Positions 21,155-50,396 of a stretch of DNA of 64,000 nucleotides are shown in pieces. This DNA is from Chloroflexota bacterium (lineage in GTDB: Bacteria > Chloroflexota > UBA11872), in NCBI GenBank assembly GCA_022825895.1, contig JAJDVX010000020.1, positions 62,001-126,000 of the forward strand, in the 5' to 3' direction. Numbering within the stretch: position 1 is the stretch's first letter; each line of letters opens with the position of its first letter. The notes beneath the pieces were generated by a model. That model did not search any database. It was not told the DNA's origin and worked only from the letters and a program-made list of their open reading frames with translations. The translations under genes and the position numbers were made by a program.

Positions 21155-23452
21155 GTGGCGCTCGGACTTACGCTATGGGTCGCGGCGCTCACGCTGGCCC
21201 TCACGGTGGCGATGCAGCCGTTGGAGCATGGGGCGACGGTTGTCCAGGCCGAGCATGGTCAGTGGCTGGTTGAGAGCGTGACGCCGGGCGGGCCGGCCTG
21301 GCGCGCCGGCCTTAGCGCAGGTGAAATGATTGTTTCTGACGGCGACCCGGGAGCGCCGATTGGACGGCCCGTAGCTTTGGGCACTGCTATCGGCACAGGG
21401 GCGCTTGCCGATTCAGGAACCCGCGACGCGATCTTTATCCCAGGTCTTGATCCGGCGATGCGCGCTACCACCCTCGTGCTCGCGACAATCTTTGCAGCCG
21501 GTGGCGCGGTCATCGCCCTCTATGGACGACGCCGAGTGCTGGTATCGGCAAGTGCCGCCATGCTTGGCGTGGCCATTGGCCTTTCGCTGGGGTCCGTGGC
21601 GCCGGACGCCGAAGGTTGGCTGACACTGCTGGTCTTTGCGGCGACTGGCGCGACGGGCGTCGCCCTGCTGTGGTTTGCGTCGGTCTGTCCCATACGTGGA
21701 CCAGCGTTCATCGTGCCGTTCGTTCCGGCACTGGCGGTCACCGCACTCGCCGGTCCGATCGCGGTGCTGGTGGCGTCATTTCAGGGCCAACCGGAACTGT
21801 ATAACGCGGCCTGGGTCACGCTTGCGCTTCTTCCGGCGCTGGGACTGACGGCGCTCCTCGCCAAGTGCATGGTCACGCTTGTGGATATCACGTTTCCCCG
21901 TGACCGGCGGGTGGCCCGCGTGTTGCTGGCAACGTTTCTGACCGCCGCGCTGCCGCCCACGGCGCTCTCCCTTGTGCCGGCAGTCGTGAGCGGCGCCGAG
22001 ATCCTTCCCTACTCCGTCTCCATGCTGGCCATCGCGGCAACCGCGCTGGGGGTCGTCCACGTGGCCGTGCCGACCTGGCGCATCCGGTTCCAGCGCGTGC
22101 TTCGAACGCTATTTCTACACGGCGCGGCCTGGATCCTGCTCTTTACGTTCTACGCGCTCCTCGTCGGCGTGATCGGTCGTTACCTGACGGATCGAGCGGG
22201 GACGTTGCCGGTCGTGTGGACTCTGACGGCGGCGCTGGTTGGCATCGGCGTGACGATGCCATTCGCGCGCTGGCTGGTTCTTCGAGCGTTGTCCGGGTGG
22301 GTGTATCAGGATAGCTACGACACGCAGCGGGTGATGCGAATGGCCAGCGGTGCGTTGGCATCCACGGCGTCGGTCGACGAACTCGCCGAGTTGGTGTTAG
22401 CCCCCGTGCGTCGAGCCATCGGCCTCGACTGGATTGCCGTGACTCGCGCAGCTTCGCCGCACGACCTTGCGGCCATCGCATTCAATAGTCTTGCCCCGAC
22501 GCCCGACGACGCGCAGGTGCGGTCGGCCGTCGTCGCCGCGGGAGGCGACGGACGCTCGGAAATCGCCGCCGTCGTCGTTCCGTGCAAGATCGATGAGGCG
22601 GTGGTGGCCTACGTTGTTGCCTCGATCCGCGAAGAGTCGTTCGGACTCAGCCAGGCTGATGCCGAATTGCTGGATGCACTGGCTAGTCAGCTCGCCGGCT
22701 TCATGGTTCGGGTGGATCTGTGGGGTCAGCTGCAGGATCGACTCCGCGAACTGGACGAGACGGCGCGGCGTCTCCAGGACAGCCAACAGACGCTGAGCGA
22801 CCTGTACGACCAAGTCAACGGCATGTTAGAGGCGGAGCGGCAGCGCATTTCGCGCGACTTGCACGACGAGCCGCTGCAGAAGTTGGTGCTTCTCCAGCGC
22901 GCGCTTCGCTCGGCCGCGCCGGGGCCCTACCGGAGCCGCGAGGCTCTCCTGCGATTAGTCGACACCGTCGCCGGTGACCTGCGTGAAATCTGCGAACGTC
23001 TTCGCCCGCCGATCCTGGATGACCTGGGCCTCGAAGCCGCGCTGCGGTGGCTTGCGAACGAAGCCGGGCGTGCCGCGCCGTTCACCATTGACCTCCAGAT
23101 TGACGGCACCCCCGACGCCCAGCGACCTGACACTGACGTCGAGACGAACATTTACCGTGCGGCCCAGGAGGCACTGAACAACGCCTTGCGGCACTCGCGG
23201 GCGTCGCGGGTTCGGATTCGACTCACCTTCGCGGCAGACGCGATTCGTTTATCGGTTCAAGACAACGGCTGCGGTTTCGCCGCCTCGTCGGATCTCACGG
23301 CCTACGCAGCCATGGGGCACTTAGGCTTGGTTGGCCTTCAGGAGCGTTTCAGCCGGCTCGGCGGGCACTTGCACGTGGATTCCGGGCTCGGAGGGCCCAC
23401 TGTCCTGACTGTGGAGGCGCCGCTGCACCCAACGGAAGTTACTCGCCCGTGA
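21155..23452 (+). CDS. Membrane NarL-type sensor histidine kinase with N-terminal PDZ-like domain
   Basis: The 765-residue protein has a first membrane helix, then a PDZ-like segment (about 33-65: WLVESVTPGGPAWRAGLSAGE), several more helices (to about residue 375), a GAF-like region, a short coiled coil, HisKA_3 with phospho-acceptor His570 in RISRDLHDEPLQ, and HATPase_c with DNGCGF (about 704-709). The PDZ would sit between helices, probably outside, and could sense peptides or misfolded proteins. The GTG at 21155 is the only usable start in the open frame. The stop overlaps the response regulator by GTGA. Confidence 0.9.
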   Translation: MALGLTLWVAALTLALTVAMQPLEHGATVVQAEHGQWLVESVTPGGPAWRAGLSAGEMIVSDGDPGAPIGRPVALGTAIGTGALADSGTRDAIFIPGLDPAMRATTLVLATIFAAGGAVIALYGRRRVLVSASAAMLGVAIGLSLGSVAPDAEGWLTLLVFAATGATGVALLWFASVCPIRGPAFIVPFVPALAVTALAGPIAVLVASFQGQPELYNAAWVTLALLPALGLTALLAKCMVTLVDITFPRDRRVARVLLATFLTAALPPTALSLVPAVVSGAEILPYSVSMLAIAATALGVVHVAVPTWRIRFQRVLRTLFLHGAAWILLFTFYALLVGVIGRYLTDRAGTLPVVWTLTAALVGIGVTMPFARWLVLRALSGWVYQDSYDTQRVMRMASGALASTASVDELAELVLAPVRRAIGLDWIAVTRAASPHDLAAIAFNSLAPTPDDAQVRSAVVAAGGDGRSEIAAVVVPCKIDEAVVAYVVASIREESFGLSQADAELLDALASQLAGFMVRVDLWGQLQDRLRELDETARRLQDSQQTLSDLYDQVNGMLEAERQRISRDLHDEPLQKLVLLQRALRSAAPGPYRSREALLRLVDTVAGDLREICERLRPPILDDLGLEAALRWLANEAGRAAPFTIDLQIDGTPDAQRPDTDVETNIYRAAQEALNNALRHSRASRVRIRLTFAADAIRLSVQDNGCGFAASSDLTAYAAMGHLGLVGLQERFSRLGGHLHVDSGLGGPTVLTVEAPLHPTEVTRP

Positions 23453-37751: not shown

Positions 37752-38942
37752 GTGCGCAGTGACTTCATGTTGGCGCTGCAACAGCTTGCCGACGAGAAGG
37801 GCATCCAGATTGAGGCAGTCGTTAACGCGCTGCGCACAGCGATCATGTCAGCCTTCGAGGACTACAACAGCGACTACGACGACATCGACATTGAGATTGA
37901 CCCGGAGACTGGCGACTCAACCGTCTACGCGAACAAAACCGTCGTCGATGTCGTTTCGGACGATGTCCACGAGATCTCGCTGGCCGAGGCCCGAAGCTAC
38001 GACCAGACCATGGAACTCGGCGAGATCTTCCAGATCGACATCACGCCGCCAAATTTTGGGCGCATCGCCACGCAGAAGGCGCGGCAGGCCATGCAGCAGG
38101 CCCTGCGCGACGCTGAACGGCTGGAGATCTATACGCACTTCATTGAGCACCAGGGACTCTTGCTCGTGGGGCGCGTGACTCGCGTCGAGAATCGGGGAGT
38201 CTTCGTGGATCTCGGGCGCGGTGAGGCAATCATGCTCCCGGGCGACCAAGTGGCCGGCGAGTTCTACCGCTCCGGGCAGCGCATGCGCGTGCTGCTACTC
38301 GAAGTGGCCGAGGGCGGCCGCGGTGCGCAGTTGCGAGTTTCGCGCGCGCACGCGGATTTTGTCCGCCGGCTCTTTGAACGCGAAGTTCCTGAGATTCAGA
38401 ACGGTTTGGTCGACATTGCGGCAATTGCGCGCGATGCTGGCGTGCGTACCAAGCTGGCGGTGCGCTCGCGACAAGAGGGGCTTGATCCCGTTGGTTCGGC
38501 TGTGGGAATGCGCGGATCGCGCATCCAAAACGTTCTCCGCGAACTGGGACAGGAAAAGGTCGAGATCATTCTGTATGACGATGAACCGCGTGTGTATGTG
38601 GCCAACGCGCTCAGTCCGGCTCGAGTGCGCAACGTCCATGTTGACTTGAGCCATCGCGTGGCCGATGTATTTGTTCCGACGGACATGGTGTCGCTCGCAA
38701 TAGGACGCGAAGGTCAGAATGCCCGTCTGGCAGCTCGGCTCACGGGGTTCAAGATCACGATTCGAGATGCGTCGGAGCCCGCCGAGGCTTTGGGCGTTGC
38801 CGAGCCCGACGGGACCCCGGACGAAGAGGCGAAGCAGGACGATGTGGATGCACCACTTGATGAACCCGGGCTCTCGCCGGAATCCGATTCGGCGAGAATG
38901 GCGGAGCACGTGGGGCGCGGCGTCGCTGGATCCGGGAGTTAA
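37752..38942 (+). CDS. nusA: Transcription termination/antitermination factor NusA
   Basis: NusA binds RNA polymerase and modulates pausing, termination and rRNA antitermination. The 396-residue protein has an N-terminal RNAP-binding domain (FMLALQQLADEKGIQ), an S1 domain (GRVTRVENRGVFVDLG), KH1 (DPVGSAVGMRGSRIQ) and KH2 (SLAIGREGQNARLAARLTG), then an acidic, probably disordered tail without Helix-hairpin repeats. The GTG start follows GAGGAGG. It opens the operon nusA-ylxR-infB-rbfA-truB-ribF. Normally rimP precedes it; here it does not. Confidence 0.95.
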   Translation: MRSDFMLALQQLADEKGIQIEAVVNALRTAIMSAFEDYNSDYDDIDIEIDPETGDSTVYANKTVVDVVSDDVHEISLAEARSYDQTMELGEIFQIDITPPNFGRIATQKARQAMQQALRDAERLEIYTHFIEHQGLLLVGRVTRVENRGVFVDLGRGEAIMLPGDQVAGEFYRSGQRMRVLLLEVAEGGRGAQLRVSRAHADFVRRLFEREVPEIQNGLVDIAAIARDAGVRTKLAVRSRQEGLDPVGSAVGMRGSRIQNVLRELGQEKVEIILYDDEPRVYVANALSPARVRNVHVDLSHRVADVFVPTDMVSLAIGREGQNARLAARLTGFKITIRDASEPAEALGVAEPDGTPDEEAKQDDVDAPLDEPGLSPESDSARMAEHVGRGVAGSGS

Positions 38943-38947
38943 CCATC
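38934..38947 (+). promoter_or_regulatory. Shine-Dalgarno and predicted ATC start of ylxR
   Basis: GGGAG (38934-38938) is followed after six bases by ATC (38945-38947). This lies across the nusA stop (38940-38942), is in frame with the conserved YlxR sequence and is the only well-placed initiation signal, since no ATG, GTG or TTG occurs in frame between the upstream stop near 38857 and 39020. Confidence 0.6.
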
Positions 38948-39238
38948 GCCCGAAGTGAGCCGACGCGCACCTGCATCGTCACGCGCAAAAGGCGACGTAA
39001 ACGTGACCTCATCCGAATTGTGCGAACGCCCGATGGCGACATTCGCTGCGATCCGACGGGTCGCGTCGATGGGCGCGGTGCCTATCTCTCCGTCGACGGC
39101 GGCTCTGTGCAGGTGGCGCTTGCGCGCGGCATCCTGGGCAGCCACTTGGAGGCTTCCATAGATCGTGATCAGGCGGATATGTTGATCAAGCAATTTGAGC
39201 GTGAACGCTTGGTTCGGCTCACCGGGAGTGCTCGCTAA
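38945..39238 (+). CDS. ylxR: YlxR (RnpM-like) RNA-binding protein, predicted AUC start
   Basis: YlxR is a small RNA-binding protein; in B. subtilis it modulates RNase P. The frame gives RTCIVTRKRRRKRDLIRIV, RCDPTGRVDGRGAYLSVD and RLVRLTGSAR, that is the YlxR fold with the GRGAY signature. The first conventional in-frame start (GTG 39020) would cut away the conserved first 25 residues. The ATC at 38945, six bases after GGGAG, gives a normal 97-residue protein. The gene starts 3 bases after the nusA stop, and infB begins one base after its stop. Identity is secure; the start codon is an inference. Confidence 0.8.
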   Translation: MARSEPTRTCIVTRKRRRKRDLIRIVRTPDGDIRCDPTGRVDGRGAYLSVDGGSVQVALARGILGSHLEASIDRDQADMLIKQFERERLVRLTGSAR

Positions 39239-39239
39239 C

Positions 39240-41123
39240 ATGGCGCGCCGCCGCCGCACACGTCGTAGACCTCCGCCACGCCCACGCGCGCGCCGCCGTC
39301 CGCAGCAGCGTCCGAGTCCTCCGGCCGACGAGCAACCGGCCGAGGTGCCGGAGGCGCCGGCCGTCGAACTCCGCCAGGTCGCGATGCCGGCTTCAGCCTC
39401 GATTGCCGACATTGCGGAACGCGCCGCAGTGCCGCCGACCGACATCATCATGGAGTTGCTCAATCGAGGCGTGCTGACGACCATTAACGCGGCCATTGAT
39501 CGCGATACCGCACGCGCGGTCATGCGGAATCTTGGGGTCGCCATCACCGACGAATCTCAAGAGGACGACGCTACCCCGGTTGCCGCGCGAAAACCGAGTG
39601 GGCGCGATTCCACGCAGCCGTCGGATGGCGAGCCGCGTCCGCCCGTGGTGACCGTGATGGGTCACGTCGATCATGGCAAGACCACGCTCCTCGACGCCAT
39701 CCGCAGTACCAACGTGGTCGACAGCGAGTTTGGGGGAATCACCCAGCACATCGGGGCCTATCAAGTGTCGGTAAACGGCGGTGCCATTACGTTCATCGAC
39801 ACTCCTGGTCACGAGGCCTTTACGGCAATGCGCGCGCGCGGAGCGGGCGTCACCGACATTGCTGTGATCGTGGTTGCCGCCGACGACGGAATCATGCCGC
39901 AAACGGTGGAGGCCATTGGGCACGCCAAGGCAGCCAGCGTCCCGATCATCATCGCGGTCAACAAGATCGACTTGGCGTCCGCCAACCCGAATCGAGTGCT
40001 CCAGCAGCTCACCGAGCATGAAATCGTAGTCGAGGACTTTGGAGGCGATGTGGTGGCAATTCCTCTCTCGGCTCTCAAGGGAGAGGGTATCGACGAACTC
40101 CTCGAGTACATCAACTTGACGGCCGAATTGGAGGAACTGCGAGCACCGGTCGACGGGCCAGCGGCGGGAACGATTATCGAGACTCGCCTGGACCACAGCC
40201 AGGGGCCAATTGCCACCGTTCTCGTTCAGCGTGGCGTCTTGAAGGTTGGGGACACCATCACGACGGGTGAGATTAACGGCCGCGTACGGGCGCTCTTCGA
40301 CGAGAGCGGCGGACGACTCCGATCAGCCAAGCCCTCCACGCCAGTCCAGGTCATGGGACTGGACGCGATGCCAGACGTCGGCGATCCCTTGAACGTCGTC
40401 GCCAGGCAGCGAAAGCGTCGTCGCCAACGGAGTCGTACTCCTGCCCGCGGAAGCGGTGACCAAGCCATGCGGCTGAGCCTCGAATCGCTCGCCGCCCAGA
40501 TGACCGCAGGCCGTCTCCAGCAGATCAACCTGGTCGTGAAGGCTGACACGGCCGGCTCTGTTGATGCCGTGGTCAAGTCAATCGACCAACTTGGCGATGA
40601 TCGGGCACGAGCAATGGTCGTATTTGAGGGCGTTGGCTCGGTTACGGAGTCGGACGTGAACCTCGCCTCCGCCGCCAAGGGACTCGTGTTGGCCTTTAAT
40701 TCGCGTGTTGATGCCACCGCCGCAGCGGAAGCTGAGCGACAGGGTGTTGACGTACGTGCCTATCGCACCATCTATGAATTGATCGACGATGTCGATGCGG
40801 CGCTCAAGGGCTCGATCAAGCCTGAAGAGGTCGAAGTCGTCGACGGTCGGCTCGAGATCCGGGGCGAGTTCCGAACCGAACGTATGCGCCAGATTGTCGG
40901 CGGTATGGTGCTCTCAGGTCGAGTTTACGTCGGTGCGCGCGTTCGGATTCTGCGAAACAGCGAGGAGATCGGCACGGGCCACATCCTCACCGTACGGCGT
41001 TTCTCGGATGAAGTGGACGAGGTGCGCCAGGGCTTTGACTGCGGTCTTGCAATAGAAACGACAACCAAGATCGAACTCGCGGACATCATCGAGGCCAGCC
41101 ACACCGAAGAACGTCTCCCGTAG
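39240..41123 (+). CDS. infB: Translation initiation factor IF-2
   Basis: IF-2 is the GTPase that delivers initiator tRNA to the 30S subunit and promotes subunit joining. The 627-residue protein has a very basic Arg/Pro-rich N-terminus, an IF2_N domain (about 50-100), the G domain with GHVDHGKTT, FGGITQHIGAY, DTPGHEAF and NKID, and then domains II-IV (GTIIETRLDHSQGP; IVGGMVLSGRVYVG). The ATG at 39240 sits one base after the ylxR stop; the frame is open further upstream within ylxR. It is a short IF-2 with a small N-terminal region. Confidence 0.97.
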   Translation: MARRRRTRRRPPPRPRARRRPQQRPSPPADEQPAEVPEAPAVELRQVAMPASASIADIAERAAVPPTDIIMELLNRGVLTTINAAIDRDTARAVMRNLGVAITDESQEDDATPVAARKPSGRDSTQPSDGEPRPPVVTVMGHVDHGKTTLLDAIRSTNVVDSEFGGITQHIGAYQVSVNGGAITFIDTPGHEAFTAMRARGAGVTDIAVIVVAADDGIMPQTVEAIGHAKAASVPIIIAVNKIDLASANPNRVLQQLTEHEIVVEDFGGDVVAIPLSALKGEGIDELLEYINLTAELEELRAPVDGPAAGTIIETRLDHSQGPIATVLVQRGVLKVGDTITTGEINGRVRALFDESGGRLRSAKPSTPVQVMGLDAMPDVGDPLNVVARQRKRRRQRSRTPARGSGDQAMRLSLESLAAQMTAGRLQQINLVVKADTAGSVDAVVKSIDQLGDDRARAMVVFEGVGSVTESDVNLASAAKGLVLAFNSRVDATAAAEAERQGVDVRAYRTIYELIDDVDAALKGSIKPEEVEVVDGRLEIRGEFRTERMRQIVGGMVLSGRVYVGARVRILRNSEEIGTGHILTVRRFSDEVDEVRQGFDCGLAIETTTKIELADIIEASHTEERLP

Positions 41124-41127
41124 CACC

Positions 41128-41142
41128 GGAGGCCGCATCATC
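41128..41142 (+). promoter_or_regulatory. Shine-Dalgarno and predicted ATC start of rbfA
   Basis: A perfect GGAGG (41128-41132), starting 5 bases after the infB stop, is followed at 4 and 7 bases by two ATC codons (41137, 41140). The second has ideal spacing and starts the conserved RbfA sequence. The upstream frame has no ATG, GTG or TTG back to within infB, and the first such codon downstream is TTG 41269. Confidence 0.65.
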
Positions 41143-41529
41143 AAGACCCGCCGTGCCCAACGGATTGAAGCTCAGATCGCGCGTGAGATCAGCGGCCTTC
41201 TTGAGCGCCACCTGGAAGACCCGGCGATTGGATTCGTTACTGTTCAGCGCGTATCGATCTCGCCGGACTTGAGCAACGCCGTCGTGTTTGTAACCCCGCT
41301 TGGTGACACCCACGACATCAAGGAATCGGTGGCCGCGTTGCAGCGGGCAGCGACGTACGTTCGCCGGGAGCTTGCGAGTCGAATCCGTGTGTATCGCATC
41401 CCGCGTATTCAATTTCAACTTGATCCTCAGATGCCGACCGCTAGCTCAATGATCGAGCGAAAAACCGACGGCCCTGCAGCCGACCACGGGACGCAAGCTC
41501 TCGCAGCGCGGCCTGACGATGGCCCGTGA
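41140..41529 (+). CDS. rbfA: Ribosome-binding factor A, predicted AUC start
   Basis: RbfA is a KH-type 30S assembly factor needed for 16S rRNA 5' maturation. The frame gives KTRRAQRIEAQIAREIS, LLERHLEDPAIGFVTV, RVSISPDLSNAVVFV and IPRIQFQLD, covering the whole RbfA core from its usual N-terminus. No ATG, GTG or TTG precedes residue 44 (TTG 41269), and starting there would remove the first helix and strand. ATC 41140, 7 bases after GGAGG, yields 129 residues, a normal length. It follows infB and overlaps truB by 11 bases, the standard gene order. Confidence 0.85.
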   Translation: MKTRRAQRIEAQIAREISGLLERHLEDPAIGFVTVQRVSISPDLSNAVVFVTPLGDTHDIKESVAALQRAATYVRRELASRIRVYRIPRIQFQLDPQMPTASSMIERKTDGPAADHGTQALAARPDDGP

Positions 41530-42475
41530 CCGCCAGATGTCGCCACACGGCGGATTCCTCAACGTCTTCAAGCCAATTGGCGCAAGTTCCACGCAAGCTG
41601 TGGGACGAGTCCGCCGCGCCGTTGGCGTGCGACGCGTAGGGCACTGCGGCACGCTGGATCCACTGGCCTGGGGTGTCCTACCCGTAGCGGTGGGGCGTGC
41701 CACTCGGTTGAGCAGCTTTGTCCTGGAAATGCCAAAGTCGTACGTGGCCGCCGTGCTTTTCGGTGTCGAAACTCCATCCCACGATATGGAAACGCAACCG
41801 ACGGCCGAGCCGCGTACGTCTCCGGAACTGAAGTCTGTCGAACAGGTGCTCCCGGCATTCGTGGGCGAAATCGAACAGCATCCGCCGGCGTACTCGGCCC
41901 TCCACGTTGATGGCGTGCGGGCCTATCGGTCGGCTCGCGCTGGTCGGCGCGTGGAGCTGCCGCCGCGTCAAGTTCACATTCGCACACTAAACTTGGTGGC
42001 GGCCGGCCGCATTGGCGTGCGGATGGCCGACGGGCGCCTGCGCTTTGGCAGCGGCTCGGGCTGGCACGACGCCCTTCTTGCCGGAATTCAGGTCGAGTGC
42101 TCGTCCGGCACCTACATTCGCGCGCTCGCACGAGATTTGGGGGCAATGATCGGCTGTGGCGCCACGCTCTTTGGACTCATCCGTACTCGCGTCGGTCCAT
42201 TCACGCTGAGGTCCGCGACTGAAATGTGGCAGCTTTCCGTCGCGACCCGAGACGGCTTCCTCAACACACTGCTCTACGCCCCCGACACCGTGGTCGAACA
42301 CCTTCCGTCAGCCGTCCTGAGCGCCAGAGATCGCATTGACTTCGGCCACGGGCGCCCGTTGCCTCGGATGGCCGACGGACTGCACCGTCTGTACGACGGA
42401 CATGGCAGCTTTCTTGGCCTCGCAAACGGCCAAGACGGCTCCTGGTCGCCCCGCATCGTATGGAATCCAGCGTAA
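41519..42475 (+). CDS. truB: tRNA pseudouridine-55 synthase TruB
   Basis: TruB isomerises U55 of tRNA T-loops to pseudouridine. The 318-residue protein has GFLNVFKPIGASST, the catalytic-Asp motif VGHCGTLDPLAWGVLPVAVG, EIEQHPPAYSALHVDGVRAY, and SSGTYIRALARDLG, then a C-terminal PUA-like part. The ATG at 41519 overlaps rbfA by 11 bases; ATG 41537 (MSPHGGFLNV) is an alternative closer to the family start. The stop overlaps the ribF start (TAATG). Confidence 0.95.
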   Translation: MARDRQMSPHGGFLNVFKPIGASSTQAVGRVRRAVGVRRVGHCGTLDPLAWGVLPVAVGRATRLSSFVLEMPKSYVAAVLFGVETPSHDMETQPTAEPRTSPELKSVEQVLPAFVGEIEQHPPAYSALHVDGVRAYRSARAGRRVELPPRQVHIRTLNLVAAGRIGVRMADGRLRFGSGSGWHDALLAGIQVECSSGTYIRALARDLGAMIGCGATLFGLIRTRVGPFTLRSATEMWQLSVATRDGFLNTLLYAPDTVVEHLPSAVLSARDRIDFGHGRPLPRMADGLHRLYDGHGSFLGLANGQDGSWSPRIVWNPA

Positions 42476-46164: not shown

Positions 46165-47427
46165 GTGCGCATAGTCCATGCGGCAGATATCCATCTGGAC
46201 ACTCCGTTTCGCCGGCACGACGCGGCGTTGCGCCAGAGGCTCCAGCACGCGGGCCGTGAAGCCTTCCGCGCTCTTGTCGACCTCACCCTCGAAGAGCGAG
46301 CGGACGCTCTGGTGATAGCCGGCGACCTCTTCGACAACGAATGGCTGACCATCGCCACCGAACGTGTTCTGACGAGCGAACTGGCCCGACTGGCTGATAC
46401 TGGCGTGACCGTGGTTTATGCCACAGGCAACCACGACCCTGGTCGTACCAACTACCGCGCCACCCACATCGCTTGGCCGTCAGCCAACTTTCACCTGCAC
46501 AGTTCACGGACAGCGCGAAGGATCCCAGTCAATCGAAGCGGCGAGCGTGTCGGTTGGATCGTGGCTGCCGGGCATCAGACGACCCATGAGTCGACCAATC
46601 TCGCGTCAACCTTCCCGCCGGCGCCGGGGCCTCAACCTGCGGTTGGGGTGTTACACGCCGACGTGGGCGGCGCGATCGGTGCGGCGGCGGACGAAGCTGG
46701 CAACGTCTACGCACCCGCCGCCCTGTCCGATTTGGATCCCGGCTACGACTACTGGGCGTTGGGACACATCCACAAGCGGCAGCGTCTCCGCGAGGACTCC
46801 CCGGCCTGGTACCCGGGCAACCTGCAAGGACGCGATTTTGGCGAAGTCGGCGCCAAAGGCGCGCTGGTCGTTGACCTCAACCCGCCCGAACCGCCACGCG
46901 TGCGCTTTCAGCCGCTCGCTCCGGTGCGCTGGGAGCGGCTGTCGGTTACCAACCTGAGTGAAGCTCGCGCCATCGGCGACGTCCACGCGGCGGTGCGAGC
47001 GGCGTTCGATGACCTACTCGAAGTCGACGAGCCCGTGCTCCCTGGCCAGGACTGGATCTTGCGAGTGGAGCTATCGGGTTCCTGCCCGCTGACGGCGGTG
47101 CTTCGAAGCGACGAGGAACGCGATGGCCTGGCCGAGTACCTGGGCGAATCCCTCGGCGCGCTGGACGTTGAGGTTCGCGATGCTGGGCTCTCTCCGCCTA
47201 TTGATCTGAGTCGCCACGTTGGCCAGCGACACGTGCTTGGCGAGGCCTTGGACCTGATTGGGCAGGCATGCCATGACAACGCGCTCCTGTCCCGCCTCGC
47301 TCCTTCGGAGTTGGCTCGTGGCGACGAGCTAGCCGACGACGGCGAGCGTCTGAAGTACCTTCGCCGGCTTGTTGAGGGACTTGACGCAGCCGCGGCGGAG
47401 CGTCTCTTGCGGAGAGACTCGGCGTGA
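46165..47427 (+). CDS. SbcD/YhaO-type DNA repair exonuclease (metallophosphoesterase)
   Basis: The 420-residue protein has the calcineurin-like metal motifs in order: HAADIHLDTPF (D-x-H), VIAGDLFDNEW (GDxxD), YATGNHDP (GNHD) and GHIHKRQRL. This is the nuclease half of Mre11/SbcD-type complexes; the pairing with a YhaN-like ATPase suggests YhaO. I chose GTG 46165 because the conserved sequence starts VRIVHAADIH; the frame opens at 46111 without conservation. The stop overlaps the next gene by GTGA. An inverted repeat (GGTCGC/GCGACC, 46078-46099) lies in the upstream gap. Confidence 0.88.
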   Translation: MRIVHAADIHLDTPFRRHDAALRQRLQHAGREAFRALVDLTLEERADALVIAGDLFDNEWLTIATERVLTSELARLADTGVTVVYATGNHDPGRTNYRATHIAWPSANFHLHSSRTARRIPVNRSGERVGWIVAAGHQTTHESTNLASTFPPAPGPQPAVGVLHADVGGAIGAAADEAGNVYAPAALSDLDPGYDYWALGHIHKRQRLREDSPAWYPGNLQGRDFGEVGAKGALVVDLNPPEPPRVRFQPLAPVRWERLSVTNLSEARAIGDVHAAVRAAFDDLLEVDEPVLPGQDWILRVELSGSCPLTAVLRSDEERDGLAEYLGESLGALDVEVRDAGLSPPIDLSRHVGQRHVLGEALDLIGQACHDNALLSRLAPSELARGDELADDGERLKYLRRLVEGLDAAAAERLLRRDSA

Positions 47428-50396
47428 GGATCGACGGATGGTCAATCGGCGCCTTTGGGCCGATTGACAAATGGACCGCGTCGGGTATGGCGGGCGACGA
47501 GGTGGTTGTGGTGCTGGGGCCCAACGAGTCCGGCAAGAGCGCCTTGTTTGAGTTCTTTGCCAGCGCCCTGTTTGGCTTTTCGCCCGCCAGGGCCGAGGCG
47601 CATCCGTACAGGCCCTGGGACGGTCGCTTTCTCGACGGCCGGCTGGACGTGGAGTTGAGCGGCGGCGAGCAGATTCGAATTGCGCGCAGGCTTACGTCAA
47701 GGCCCGAGGGCCGCATCATCCACGGACAGACTGAGGAGCGACTGGCCAATCGGCCGATTCCCGCAGTTGGCCTCATGACGCGCGACGTGTTCAAGAATGT
47801 CTACGCGTTGACCCAGGAGGAAGCGCTGGGCTTGGACGCGCGGGCCTGGCAACACGTTCAGGACCGGGTGTTAGGCGGTAGCTCGTACGACTTTCTGCGT
47901 CCATCGCGTGAAGTAGTGAGCGCGCTTGACACCGAACGTCGGCGTCTCTGGCGACCTGACCGTCGCGGCCGGCCGGCGGCTCGTGAAATCGCCGCCCAGA
48001 TCAGAAGTTTGCGGGACGGTCTTCGCGAGGCCGCTCAGCGGCGAGCGCAGATTGAAGCCGCCGACGAGCGACTCCAGGAAATCGCAGAGGAGCTTGCCGG
48101 TCACACCAGTGAGCTGCGGTGTATTGAGTTGGCCCTGGAACGAGACGCCACGCTGGCGCCGCTGGTCGGGCGAGTTGAACGCATGGAGCAGTTGACAGCT
48201 CAGGCGGACGACCTGCTGCCGGAAGGCGACTTGCCCGACGACCTCCCGGACCGTCGCGGTACTGTCATCGAGCGGCTTGACGAACTCTCGAAGGCCCGAA
48301 AGACACACCTGCGAGGAATCGAGGATTGCGAACAGGTGGTCGAGATCGACGACCCAACCAGGCGTCTTTTGGAAGCCCGCGTAGCGATTGAACGCCAGGA
48401 CCGCGAACTTGCGCTTGCTCGCGCTGATCAGGATCGAATCGACAGCATGAACGCGGAACTGCAGCGCCGCGACGGCGCCCTGCGCGAAGTCGCAGTGCGT
48501 GCCCTCGTCTCGGAGCAGGTCGATTCGACCGCAAGCGACGCGATTCTCAGTCTCTCAGTGGCCGAACTGCGTGGTCGGCTCAATAGTTCACGTGAAGCCC
48601 AACGCAGATTCGACGCCGCGTCGGAGGCGCTTCGCAGCGCCGCGGCTGAACGCCTGAATTTGGAACAGGTCGTCGAGGCTTCGGTATCGACGCACAGCCC
48701 GGCAAACCTCGACGAACGGTTGCGTGTGCTCGGCGAGGCCAAAGCAGCCCGGGAACTTGCAGCCCGTAGCCCGTCAGTGCCCGGAGGCTTCCCGGTTCCA
48801 TTGCTCGTCGCCGTTGGACTCGCGGGTATTGCGGCGCTGGCAGGAGGCTTTGTCATGGGCGGCCCGTTCGGCACGCTCCTGGCGGTATTGGGCGCAGTCA
48901 CGCTCGCTGCCGCCGTCGGTGCCATGGTGGCACGTCGGCGGTCCGTCCCGGCGAGCGGTAGCGACTGGAAAGCTCAGCTTCGTGGGCTTGGTTTCGACTC
49001 TGGAGTCGATATCGCGGAAGAGATCACACGTCTCCGGGCCGAGCGCGATGCCGCGATTCGGCGGGAGATTGCCGTCGAGCGGTTGGCAGCCTCTCAGGAC
49101 GCTGAAGCTACGGTTCGAGAAACAGCGCACACGGCGGAAGCTGAGTTTCAGGCTGCACGAACCGACTTCCTTGCGGTGATTGCCGAAGTGCCAGTGGCGC
49201 CTGTTCACCGCGAATCTCCCGACGACGGAGTGGTTCGCGATCTGGAAGAGATGCGCCAGTCGATCCAGGACACGCGGCGAATCATGAGCAATCGAGATGA
49301 GGTGGCCGAGCGACTAACGGCTTGGCGAACCGAGGTCGAACGCCTGCGCCAGACACTCGCGATCGAGTTGCCTGCCGATCCCGTCGAGGCCGCCCCAGCT
49401 ACACGGCGTGCGCTGGATGTCGCGCTGGATGCCGAGCGTGCCGCGTCTGAAGCTACGGCGGAGCTTGCCGAGTTACGCCAGCGCCTCGAGAGCTGCGATC
49501 AAGAACGCGAAGCCGCAATGCTCGAACTTGAGCAGATTGACGTCGCCCTGGCCGCTCTTGATCCCGATGGGGCCGAGCCTGCGGTGGGACTCGGCCGAAT
49601 TCGGCAGGCCTTGGAGCTCCGCGCCGAAGCCCGTCGGGTTCTGGCTGACTTGGAGCGCGACACACCCGGCTGGCGCGAGCGGATCGCGGAGGCTGAGGAG
49701 TTGGTCTCCTCCGGTGAGCCCATACGCCTCAGCGACGCCGAACGCGTCGAACATCGTCTGCGCGCGGAAGAGCTGCGCACTGCCGGACAGGATCTCGCGG
49801 CCGAAAGAGGCCAGTTGATGACCGAACGAGACCGGGTGGCCGGCGAGCCGGGACCTGCGCACATCATGGGAGCCATTCAGGCCGCCGAGGAGCAACTGGA
49901 CTTTGTGCGGCGTGAGCACGACCGGCTGGCTCTGCTGCGCCAGGTAGTCCTTATGGCCGAGCACTCGTATCGCGAGCGCTACCAGGCGCCGCTCTTGCAG
50001 GCCGCCGGCGCCCACCTGCGCCATTTCACCGGTGGGCGTTATGACTTGCTAACTGTGGATGACGCCTCGTCGGGGGACGTAAGGCTCCAGGTCCGCCGGA
50101 CCGGCGAGGACTTTCCTCAGGATGTGGACACGCCGCTGAGCCGCGGAACGATCCAACAGATTTACTTTGCGCTGCGGCTGGCGATGGTCGACCTAGTCGA
50201 AGGCGATGAACCGCTACCGATATTCCTCGACGAAATGTTCGTCAACTGGGATCCCGGACGGACTACCAGCGGCCTGGCGGCCTTGGCCAGCATGCCGGGC
50301 GACCGGCAGGTTTTCCTGTTCACCGCCGACCCGTTCTGGGCCGAGCGCGCCGTGCAGGATGTACCGGCGAAGATCGTGCGCACGCCCGCGGCCTAG
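47424..50396 (+). CDS. YhaN-type SMC-like ATPase with central membrane helix pair
   Basis: The 990-residue protein has a split ABC/SMC-type ATPase: N-terminal Walker A LGPNESGKSA (31-40) and C-terminal signature LSRGTIQQIYFALR followed by Walker B LPIFLDEMFVNWD (about 928-940). Long Arg/Glu/Ala-rich coiled coils fill the middle, interrupted at about 452-503 by two hydrophobic helices where SbcC/Rad50 has a zinc hook. AAA_27/YhaN proteins have this layout. The GTG start overlaps the YhaO-like gene; together they probably form a membrane-linked Mre11-Rad50-like DNA end-processing complex. Confidence 0.87.
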   Translation: MRIDGWSIGAFGPIDKWTASGMAGDEVVVVLGPNESGKSALFEFFASALFGFSPARAEAHPYRPWDGRFLDGRLDVELSGGEQIRIARRLTSRPEGRIIHGQTEERLANRPIPAVGLMTRDVFKNVYALTQEEALGLDARAWQHVQDRVLGGSSYDFLRPSREVVSALDTERRRLWRPDRRGRPAAREIAAQIRSLRDGLREAAQRRAQIEAADERLQEIAEELAGHTSELRCIELALERDATLAPLVGRVERMEQLTAQADDLLPEGDLPDDLPDRRGTVIERLDELSKARKTHLRGIEDCEQVVEIDDPTRRLLEARVAIERQDRELALARADQDRIDSMNAELQRRDGALREVAVRALVSEQVDSTASDAILSLSVAELRGRLNSSREAQRRFDAASEALRSAAAERLNLEQVVEASVSTHSPANLDERLRVLGEAKAARELAARSPSVPGGFPVPLLVAVGLAGIAALAGGFVMGGPFGTLLAVLGAVTLAAAVGAMVARRRSVPASGSDWKAQLRGLGFDSGVDIAEEITRLRAERDAAIRREIAVERLAASQDAEATVRETAHTAEAEFQAARTDFLAVIAEVPVAPVHRESPDDGVVRDLEEMRQSIQDTRRIMSNRDEVAERLTAWRTEVERLRQTLAIELPADPVEAAPATRRALDVALDAERAASEATAELAELRQRLESCDQEREAAMLELEQIDVALAALDPDGAEPAVGLGRIRQALELRAEARRVLADLERDTPGWRERIAEAEELVSSGEPIRLSDAERVEHRLRAEELRTAGQDLAAERGQLMTERDRVAGEPGPAHIMGAIQAAEEQLDFVRREHDRLALLRQVVLMAEHSYRERYQAPLLQAAGAHLRHFTGGRYDLLTVDDASSGDVRLQVRRTGEDFPQDVDTPLSRGTIQQIYFALRLAMVDLVEGDEPLPIFLDEMFVNWDPGRTTSGLAALASMPGDRQVFLFTADPFWAERAVQDVPAKIVRTPAA

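Follow-up and report, generated by a model that had tools for sequence, protein, structure and literature searches.

A predicted AUC start codon of rbfA, accompanied by one at ylxR, is conserved across a genus of Chloroflexota

Where does translation of rbfA begin in a genus of uncultured bacteria whose gene offers no ATG, GTG or TTG at the conserved N terminus, and what might an unusual start codon do there? The question arises from a 64,000-nt stretch of DNA (hereafter the window), which is part of genome G000 (contig 34; Chloroflexota, 3.54 Mb); the other named members of the genus are metagenome-assembled Chloroflexi/Chloroflexota. The operon in the window runs in the order nusA - ylxR - infB - rbfA - truB (Table 1), and the letters at the infB-rbfA junction read TAG CACC GGAGG CCGC ATC ATC AAG, which places GGAGG 4 nt upstream of the ATC at 41137-41139 and 7 nt upstream of that at 41140-41142. 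A sequence-only reading of the window had described this junction in the same terms, and the letters agree with it. It had also proposed that rbfA and ylxR both start with AUC and that start-codon fidelity coordinates the supply of ribosome-assembly factors, in analogy to infC.

Table 1. Features of the nusA-truB region, in window coordinates
Feature	Position	Strand	Remarks
nusA, GTG start	37752..38942	+	TAA at 38940-38942; from frame and product
Shine-Dalgarno GGGAG of ylxR	38934..38938	+	Inside the end of nusA; pairing -6.9 kcal/mol
ylxR (rnpM-like) CDS, predicted AUC start at 38945-38947	38945..39238	+	ATC in 13 of 13 genus genomes
infB (IF2), ATG start	39240..41123	+	From frame and product; TAG at 41121-41123, 16 nt before the rbfA AUC
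Shine-Dalgarno GGAGG of rbfA	41128..41132	+	Kept in 12 of 13 genus genomes; GGAG in G010
First ATC of the rbfA junction	41137..41139	+	Spacer, not start; codon varies within the genus
Predicted AUC start codon of rbfA	41140..41142	+	ATC in 12 genus genomes, ATT in the 13th (G003); ATG in the sister genus
rbfA CDS, 129 codons and TGA	41140..41529	+	Matches profiles PF02033 and TIGR00082
truB, ATG start	41519..42475	+	Overlaps the 3' end of rbfA

The rbfA frame measures 157 codons from stop to stop and is open back to 41056-41059. In the window it contains no ATG, GTG or TTG upstream of the two ATC codons, the first such codon being TTG 41269, 43 codons past the second ATC. With translation beginning at 41140, the protein reaches 86.4 bits with TIGR00082 (cut-off 51.15) and 91.9 bits with Pfam RBFA (PF02033), aligning to positions 1-101 of 105, and with the AUC start it is a full-length RbfA above the curated cut-off. 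Translated from TTG 41269, it shrinks to 86 residues and falls to 39.8 bits with TIGR00082, under the same cut-off; with Pfam RBFA it still reaches 44.7 bits (cut-off 34.7), over profile positions 41-101 only. The claim that the first standard codon would cost 43 residues is therefore correct, and the shortened form no longer passes as RbfA by TIGR00082. The gene is the sole match in a search of genome G000 with the RBFA profile, and its Shine-Dalgarno (SD) sequence pairs with the 16S tail at a computed -9.5 kcal/mol, more strongly than that of infB (-6.9) and less strongly than that of nusA (-11.5).

We found rbfA in 97 of 101 genomes and read its start in 67, leaving 30 unread. Those read comprise 13 genomes of the genus, six of the sister genus and 48 others, the last made up of G020, 19 of the same order or class (18 ATG, one GTG) and 28 further members of the phylum, which came from 30 loci, two of them duplicating the order/class set. 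Within the genus, the 12 named loci correspond to genomes G001-G012 and are counted once; G001 is nearly a duplicate of G000 (99% RbfA identity) and G003 is 76% complete. The codon aligned to 41140 is ATC in 12 of the 13 genus genomes and ATT in G003, while that aligned to 41137 is ATC, ACC, CCC, GCC or GTT. Since the latter varies and the former hardly changes, the second ATC would be the start. Codons on the 3' side drift as well, through AAG, GCT and AGC at the next position and ACC, ACG, ACT, TCG and GCG at the one after; over rbfA positions 2-45, the 13 genomes show a mean of 3.55 different codons per position, with two or fewer at only 7 of 44 positions. Set against this drift of its neighbors, the alignment indicates that conservation of the 41140 codon exceeds chance.

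The SD sequence is spaced 7 nt from this codon in 12 of the 13 genus genomes, and G010 has GGAG in the same place. The nearest in-frame standard codon lies 17-57 codons upstream or is absent, and 31-48 codons downstream, where its place differs among the genomes. In G003 a stop stands five codons before the ATT, so that the N terminus of RbfA cannot come from further upstream in frame. The sequence marks of starts of the infC and sigR kind are found at rbfA: all 13 genomes lack a usable ATG, GTG or TTG at the conserved N terminus, and the codon present differs from AUG by one base, is conserved in the lineage and sits at a usable distance from its SD. As judged from these alignments, rbfA translation is predicted to start at AUC 41140 throughout the genus, with AUU in one species. 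All six genomes of the sister genus have ATG exactly at the equivalent of 41140, behind a weaker GGAG, and all 48 other genomes have ATG, GTG or TTG at the usual rbfA start; in the sample read, AUC is therefore a trait derived in the genus.

The second gene proposed to share this start is ylxR, the product of which scores 72.2 bits with Pfam YlxR (cut-off 26.9) and 76.8 bits, just below the cut-off of 80, with the RnpM model NF047356. Its AUC in the window lies 2 nt past the nusA stop and 6 nt downstream of GGGAG, and all 13 genus genomes have ATC at the aligned start position. The unusual start in two genes of one operon thus holds across the genus, with one reservation: seven of the 13 genomes carry an in-frame TTG at the second codon before the ATC, which adjoins the SD without a spacer, while the remaining six have TTA, CTA or another codon there. 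A usable standard start is accordingly lacking without reservation in six of the 13; that the start is one base from AUG (conserved in 13 of 13) and has a usable SD (in the window) applies to ylxR as to rbfA. In the sister genus, none of the six ylxR loci (L074-L079) has a standard codon at the start place. The region there reads GGAG-AC-ATA-GCT-CTG-CGT, with the CTG 8 nt past GGAG and aligned with the usual Met-Arg-His start; the ATA overlaps a TAG just before this CTG. Comparing the starts of both genes across relatives, which the sequence-only reading had suggested as a check, the alignments indicate that a standard start is absent from ylxR in both genera read and from rbfA in one only. 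Start codons of nusA and infB in relatives are ATG or GTG. As a further observation on this operon, RimP_N (PF02576) finds no match in any of 19 related genomes, G000 included, but does find one in 10 of 14 control genomes, and the nusA operon is without rimP.

The initiation machinery looks ordinary. The single initiator tRNA found, among the 30 of 49 tRNA matches that were typed, has a CAU anticodon and the GGG:CCC pairs (CGGGCTCATAACCCG); the 16S rRNA ends in GGATCACCTCCT, a normal anti-SD; and IF3 is full-length, both of its domains aligning with solved structures (E 2.6e-43). Four of nine 16S search strings went unmatched, and the stretches concerned are ordinary conserved blocks with a few base differences. 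In the 30 typed tRNA matches, the 16S tail and IF3 we saw nothing unusual that would account for the AUC. A second initiator may lie among the other tRNA matches, but the data require no altered code or initiator. The gene for IF3 has itself an unusual start. In the genus, infC begins with CTG behind GGAG at all 12 loci read (the genus-type copy of G004 being left out), as it does at all six loci of the sister genus. A TTG abuts the SD at 11 of the 12 genus loci, but G003, G015 and G018 have no standard codon at that place, which settles the CTG start. Several relatives of families f2 and f4 start infC with ATA. A near-cognate start of infC is a known hallmark of IF3 autocontrol, so the autocontrol logic is likely intact here. 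G004 also holds a second infC (G004:C12:152370-152624, L097) of the f4 type with an ATA start, which probably reflects bin contamination or transfer.

How far such starts extend beyond these genes bears directly on the idea of a scheme for assembly factors. Stretches from six genomes were screened for conserved stop-to-stop ORFs whose homology extends upstream of the first standard codon, with identity limits of 38-85% or 35-85%, and the flags were sorted by eye. In these stretches, which were chosen around rbfA, infC and rplB and are not a random genome sample, the conserved non-edge ORFs and the flags among them numbered 183 and 11 in G000, 185 and 25 in G002, 230 and 28 in G013, 196 and nine in G020, 43 and four in G029, and 20 and none in G045; because of that choice, enrichment of translation genes cannot be judged from the counts. 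Accepted as probable were rbfA, ylxR and an ABC exporter in G000; ylxR, a CorC-like gene and the ABC exporter in G002 (cdsA, an esterase and a second ABC protein being unsure); the ABC exporter, the CorC-like gene (with a GTG eight codons on), cdsA and uvrC in G013; infC, the ABC exporter and a GHMP-kinase-like gene in G020; and infC in G029. The remaining flags were judged to be neighbor overlap, shadow frames or conserved upstream DNA. The screen overlooked infC in G000, G002 and G013, rbfA in G002 and ylxR in G013, all seen separately, and so misses cases. It supersedes earlier comparative screens that were flooded by low-complexity and shadow ORFs. Expectation-maximization of start-codon use from single genomes gave no evidence either way, the change point in codon usage being too blurred: one run was dominated in G002 by TCA, CTA and TTA, a sign of the wrong strand, and another put CCC, CGC and CCG implausibly level with ATC or CTG.

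Among the individual cases, the clearest outside the operon is the ABC exporter (G000:C2:50016-51806, - strand), which has ATA at its conserved start in G000, G002 and G013, which belong to two genera, and CTG in G020, with a standard codon 18-25 codons downstream. The CorC-like gene apparently starts with ATC in G002 (stretch b 117358-119220, - strand) and ATA in G013 (C10 stretch 46721-48049, + strand); cdsA has CTG in G013 and probably in G002 too, and uvrC has CTG in G013 versus ATG in G000. For the ABC exporter, the CorC-like gene and cdsA, a standard codon follows 8-26 codons downstream, which makes them less secure than rbfA. A metallophosphoesterase also ranks among the genes with probable near-cognate starts and no link to the ribosome. 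Conversely, ybeY starts with ATG in 10 of 12 genus genomes read, whereas G002 and G003 lack a standard codon where one is expected; separately, in the ybeY frame of G021 (L315) the opening codon is ATT, immediately after AGAAGGGTAA, and the first standard codon lies well within the domain. With probable near-cognate starts in genes unrelated to the ribosome and ybeY mostly on ATG, such starts are not peculiar to assembly factors. Of the scheme proposed in analogy to infC, there remain the genus-wide AUC of rbfA and ylxR and the CUG of infC; its restriction to assembly factors is not supported, since the ABC exporter, the CorC-like gene, cdsA and the metallophosphoesterase probably share the feature, whereas ybeY (10 of 12), nusA and infB keep ATG or GTG. 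Across the order, near-cognate starts are gained and lost from one gene to another; those of rbfA and ylxR are well fixed, but they do not prove a dedicated scheme.

What, then, could the AUC do? It probably keeps the levels of RbfA and YlxR low and sensitive to the stringency of start-site selection. Our main reading, to which we give a probability of roughly 0.6 and which draws on analogy with characterized starts, is that the AUC of rbfA (and of ylxR) is a weak start discriminated against by IF3 and aided by its SD and by coupling, the output of which would rise when IF3 scrutiny is weak or the 30S is poor in RbfA. Ordinary fMet-tRNA would read AUC with a third-base mismatch, and IF3 would destabilize the mismatched complexes; a good SD and ribosomes that have just terminated on the preceding gene would partly compensate. 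rbfA would then be translated weakly, by re-initiating ribosomes or by new arrivals guided by the SD, and the amounts of RbfA and YlxR would be small fractions of those of IF2 and NusA, output going up when IF3 scrutiny is weak. In vitro, more IF3 lowers initiation at AUU with CAU (PMC10158994, excerpt); in Staphylococcus aureus, output from non-canonical starts is about 10% of that from AUG (PMC13009471, excerpt); and in Streptomyces, repression by IF3 of the GTC start of sigR was shown by experiment (PMC5472188, excerpt). In Escherichia coli, IF3 over-production cut re-initiation, in the authors' reading, only for a coupled AUG gene without an SD (PMC2268962, excerpt), which means that coupling alone may also confer sensitivity to IF3. 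For ylxR, the TTG that adjoins the SD in seven of 13 genomes speaks against this reading.

Other explanations of the rbfA AUC have to be weighed against this. That it is a sequencing or assembly error has next to no chance of being right: all source genomes are derived from metagenomes, but the same codon recurs in all 13 genomes, which stem from several projects and include a single 3.0-Mb contig, and the ATT of G003 differs as a real third base would. The sequence-only reading was right to argue against random error. Nor is it at all probable that RbfA is made from TTG 41269 or by frameshifting out of infB. This TTG is the first standard codon, onto which standard gene callers are forced, but using it would remove 43 conserved residues and bring the score under the TIGR00082 cut-off; the first standard codon shifts over 31-48 codons downstream among the 13 genomes, while GGAGG is conserved at the AUC, and the stop five codons before the ATT of G003 bars an N terminus arising upstream in frame.

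The two explanations that accept the AUC as the start differ in what they make of it. The lineage may simply be lax about start codons, rbfA having reached AUC by drift that a strong SD made tolerable, with no adaptive meaning. Such laxity fits the probable near-cognate starts of several genes across families f1 and f2 (the ABC exporter, CorC-like gene, cdsA, infC and a G013 gene with ATC where its G045 homologue has ATG), but we hold this explanation to be quite unlikely: ATG, GTG and TTG are still the rule (of the 183 ORFs screened in G000, 11 were flagged and three accepted by eye, plus infC), a drifting codon should have reached GTG, TTG or ATG in some of the 13 species and did not, and neither the tRNA, the 16S tail nor IF3 shows relaxed selection. 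Alternatively, the two AUC codons may act as fixed attenuators that set low ratios of RbfA to IF2 and of YlxR to NusA within one operon and convey no signal. Each of the two genes immediately follows a highly expressed translation gene, the gaps being 2 and 16 nt, and YlxR and RbfA are expected in smaller amounts on general grounds. The start of S. aureus cvfC1 acts as a constant attenuator (PMC13009471, excerpt). GUG, UUG or a weaker SD would serve that end equally well, however, whereas here a strong SD is paired with a codon of the class that IF3 discriminates against, and we regard fixed attenuation as unlikely.

The reading of a weak start under IF3 scrutiny can be extended to a closed loop, which we put forward as a tentative and rather doubtful possibility, by analogy with E. 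coli. There, mutations in the rRNA leader that impair 30S assembly raise initiation at AUC 2- to 4-fold, loss of rbfA is listed among other factors as lowering fidelity, and 30S subunits from rbfA-deleted cells bind IF3 poorly, a result cited from Sharma and Anand 2019 (all PMC10250234, excerpt). Because RbfA is needed for the 30S to bind IF3 well in E. coli, an AUC start would make rbfA output rise with exactly the defect that RbfA corrects. Subunits poor in RbfA would bind IF3 poorly, accept AUC and preferentially translate rbfA and ylxR until RbfA is restored and IF3 shuts the AUC again; with the CUG of infC, this would form a small start-fidelity regulon tying IF3 level, 30S maturation and the supply of assembly factors. 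Related families manage with ATG as the rbfA start, which shows that such a loop is no general requirement.

Gene callers accept only ATG, GTG and TTG. Conserved AUC starts are for that reason seldom recorded, and an annotation of this rbfA would either lack the first 43 residues or overlook the gene. Some precedents exist all the same. E. coli pcnB is reportedly the second chromosomal gene with an AUU start and limited by its start codon; unlike rbfA and ylxR, it is a single gene, for poly(A) polymerase. A 2020 preprint is said to find that translation-related bacterial genes prefer non-AUG starts and to suggest control by IF3. The start of infC is AUU in E. coli, ATC in Streptomyces and AUA in S. 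aureus, and like that of rbfA it is near-cognate, of the class rejected by IF3, conserved in a lineage and borne by a gene of the translation machinery (PMC5472188, PMC13009471, excerpts). The two differ in that IF3 represses its own start directly, while RbfA acts on the 30S to which IF3 binds. We know of no role of RbfA in judging start codons. The nearest match is Streptomyces sigR. Behind a strong SD, 32 of 34 species have a non-canonical start for this gene, its third base being T in two (GTC/GTT); in sister genera a canonical ATG is annotated, and gene callers misannotate the start (PMC5472188, excerpt). The pattern closely resembles that of rbfA here, with its 12 ATC, one ATT, sister-genus ATG and strong SD; sigR is another gene with another function, and its dependence on IF3 is experimental, whereas that of rbfA is predicted. 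S. aureus cvfC1 (AUU) and ccpN (AUA) likewise combine conserved near-cognate starts, a strong SD and about 10% output (PMC13009471, excerpt), but they are not translation genes and do not lie in the IF2 operon.

The sequence-only reading had called the combination undescribed. A literature search of incomplete coverage found no paper on a start other than AUG, GUG or UUG in rbfA or ylxR, in keeping with that claim, while repression of non-canonical starts by IF3 is in print for infC and for Streptomyces sigR (PMC5472188): a start codon outside the standard set and discriminated by IF3 is already a known device, and rbfA and ylxR may be new as its bearers. Should the AUC be regulatory, the matching of assembly-factor supply to 30S maturation could be tested by a one-base change in a reporter. 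There is, moreover, a whole order of Chloroflexota in which near-cognate starts can be traced gene by gene. A short conserved gene of G013 (C10 stretch 22476-22964, - strand), for example, opens with ATC GAT behind GAGGAGG, and its distant homologue in G045 has ATG at the aligned place.
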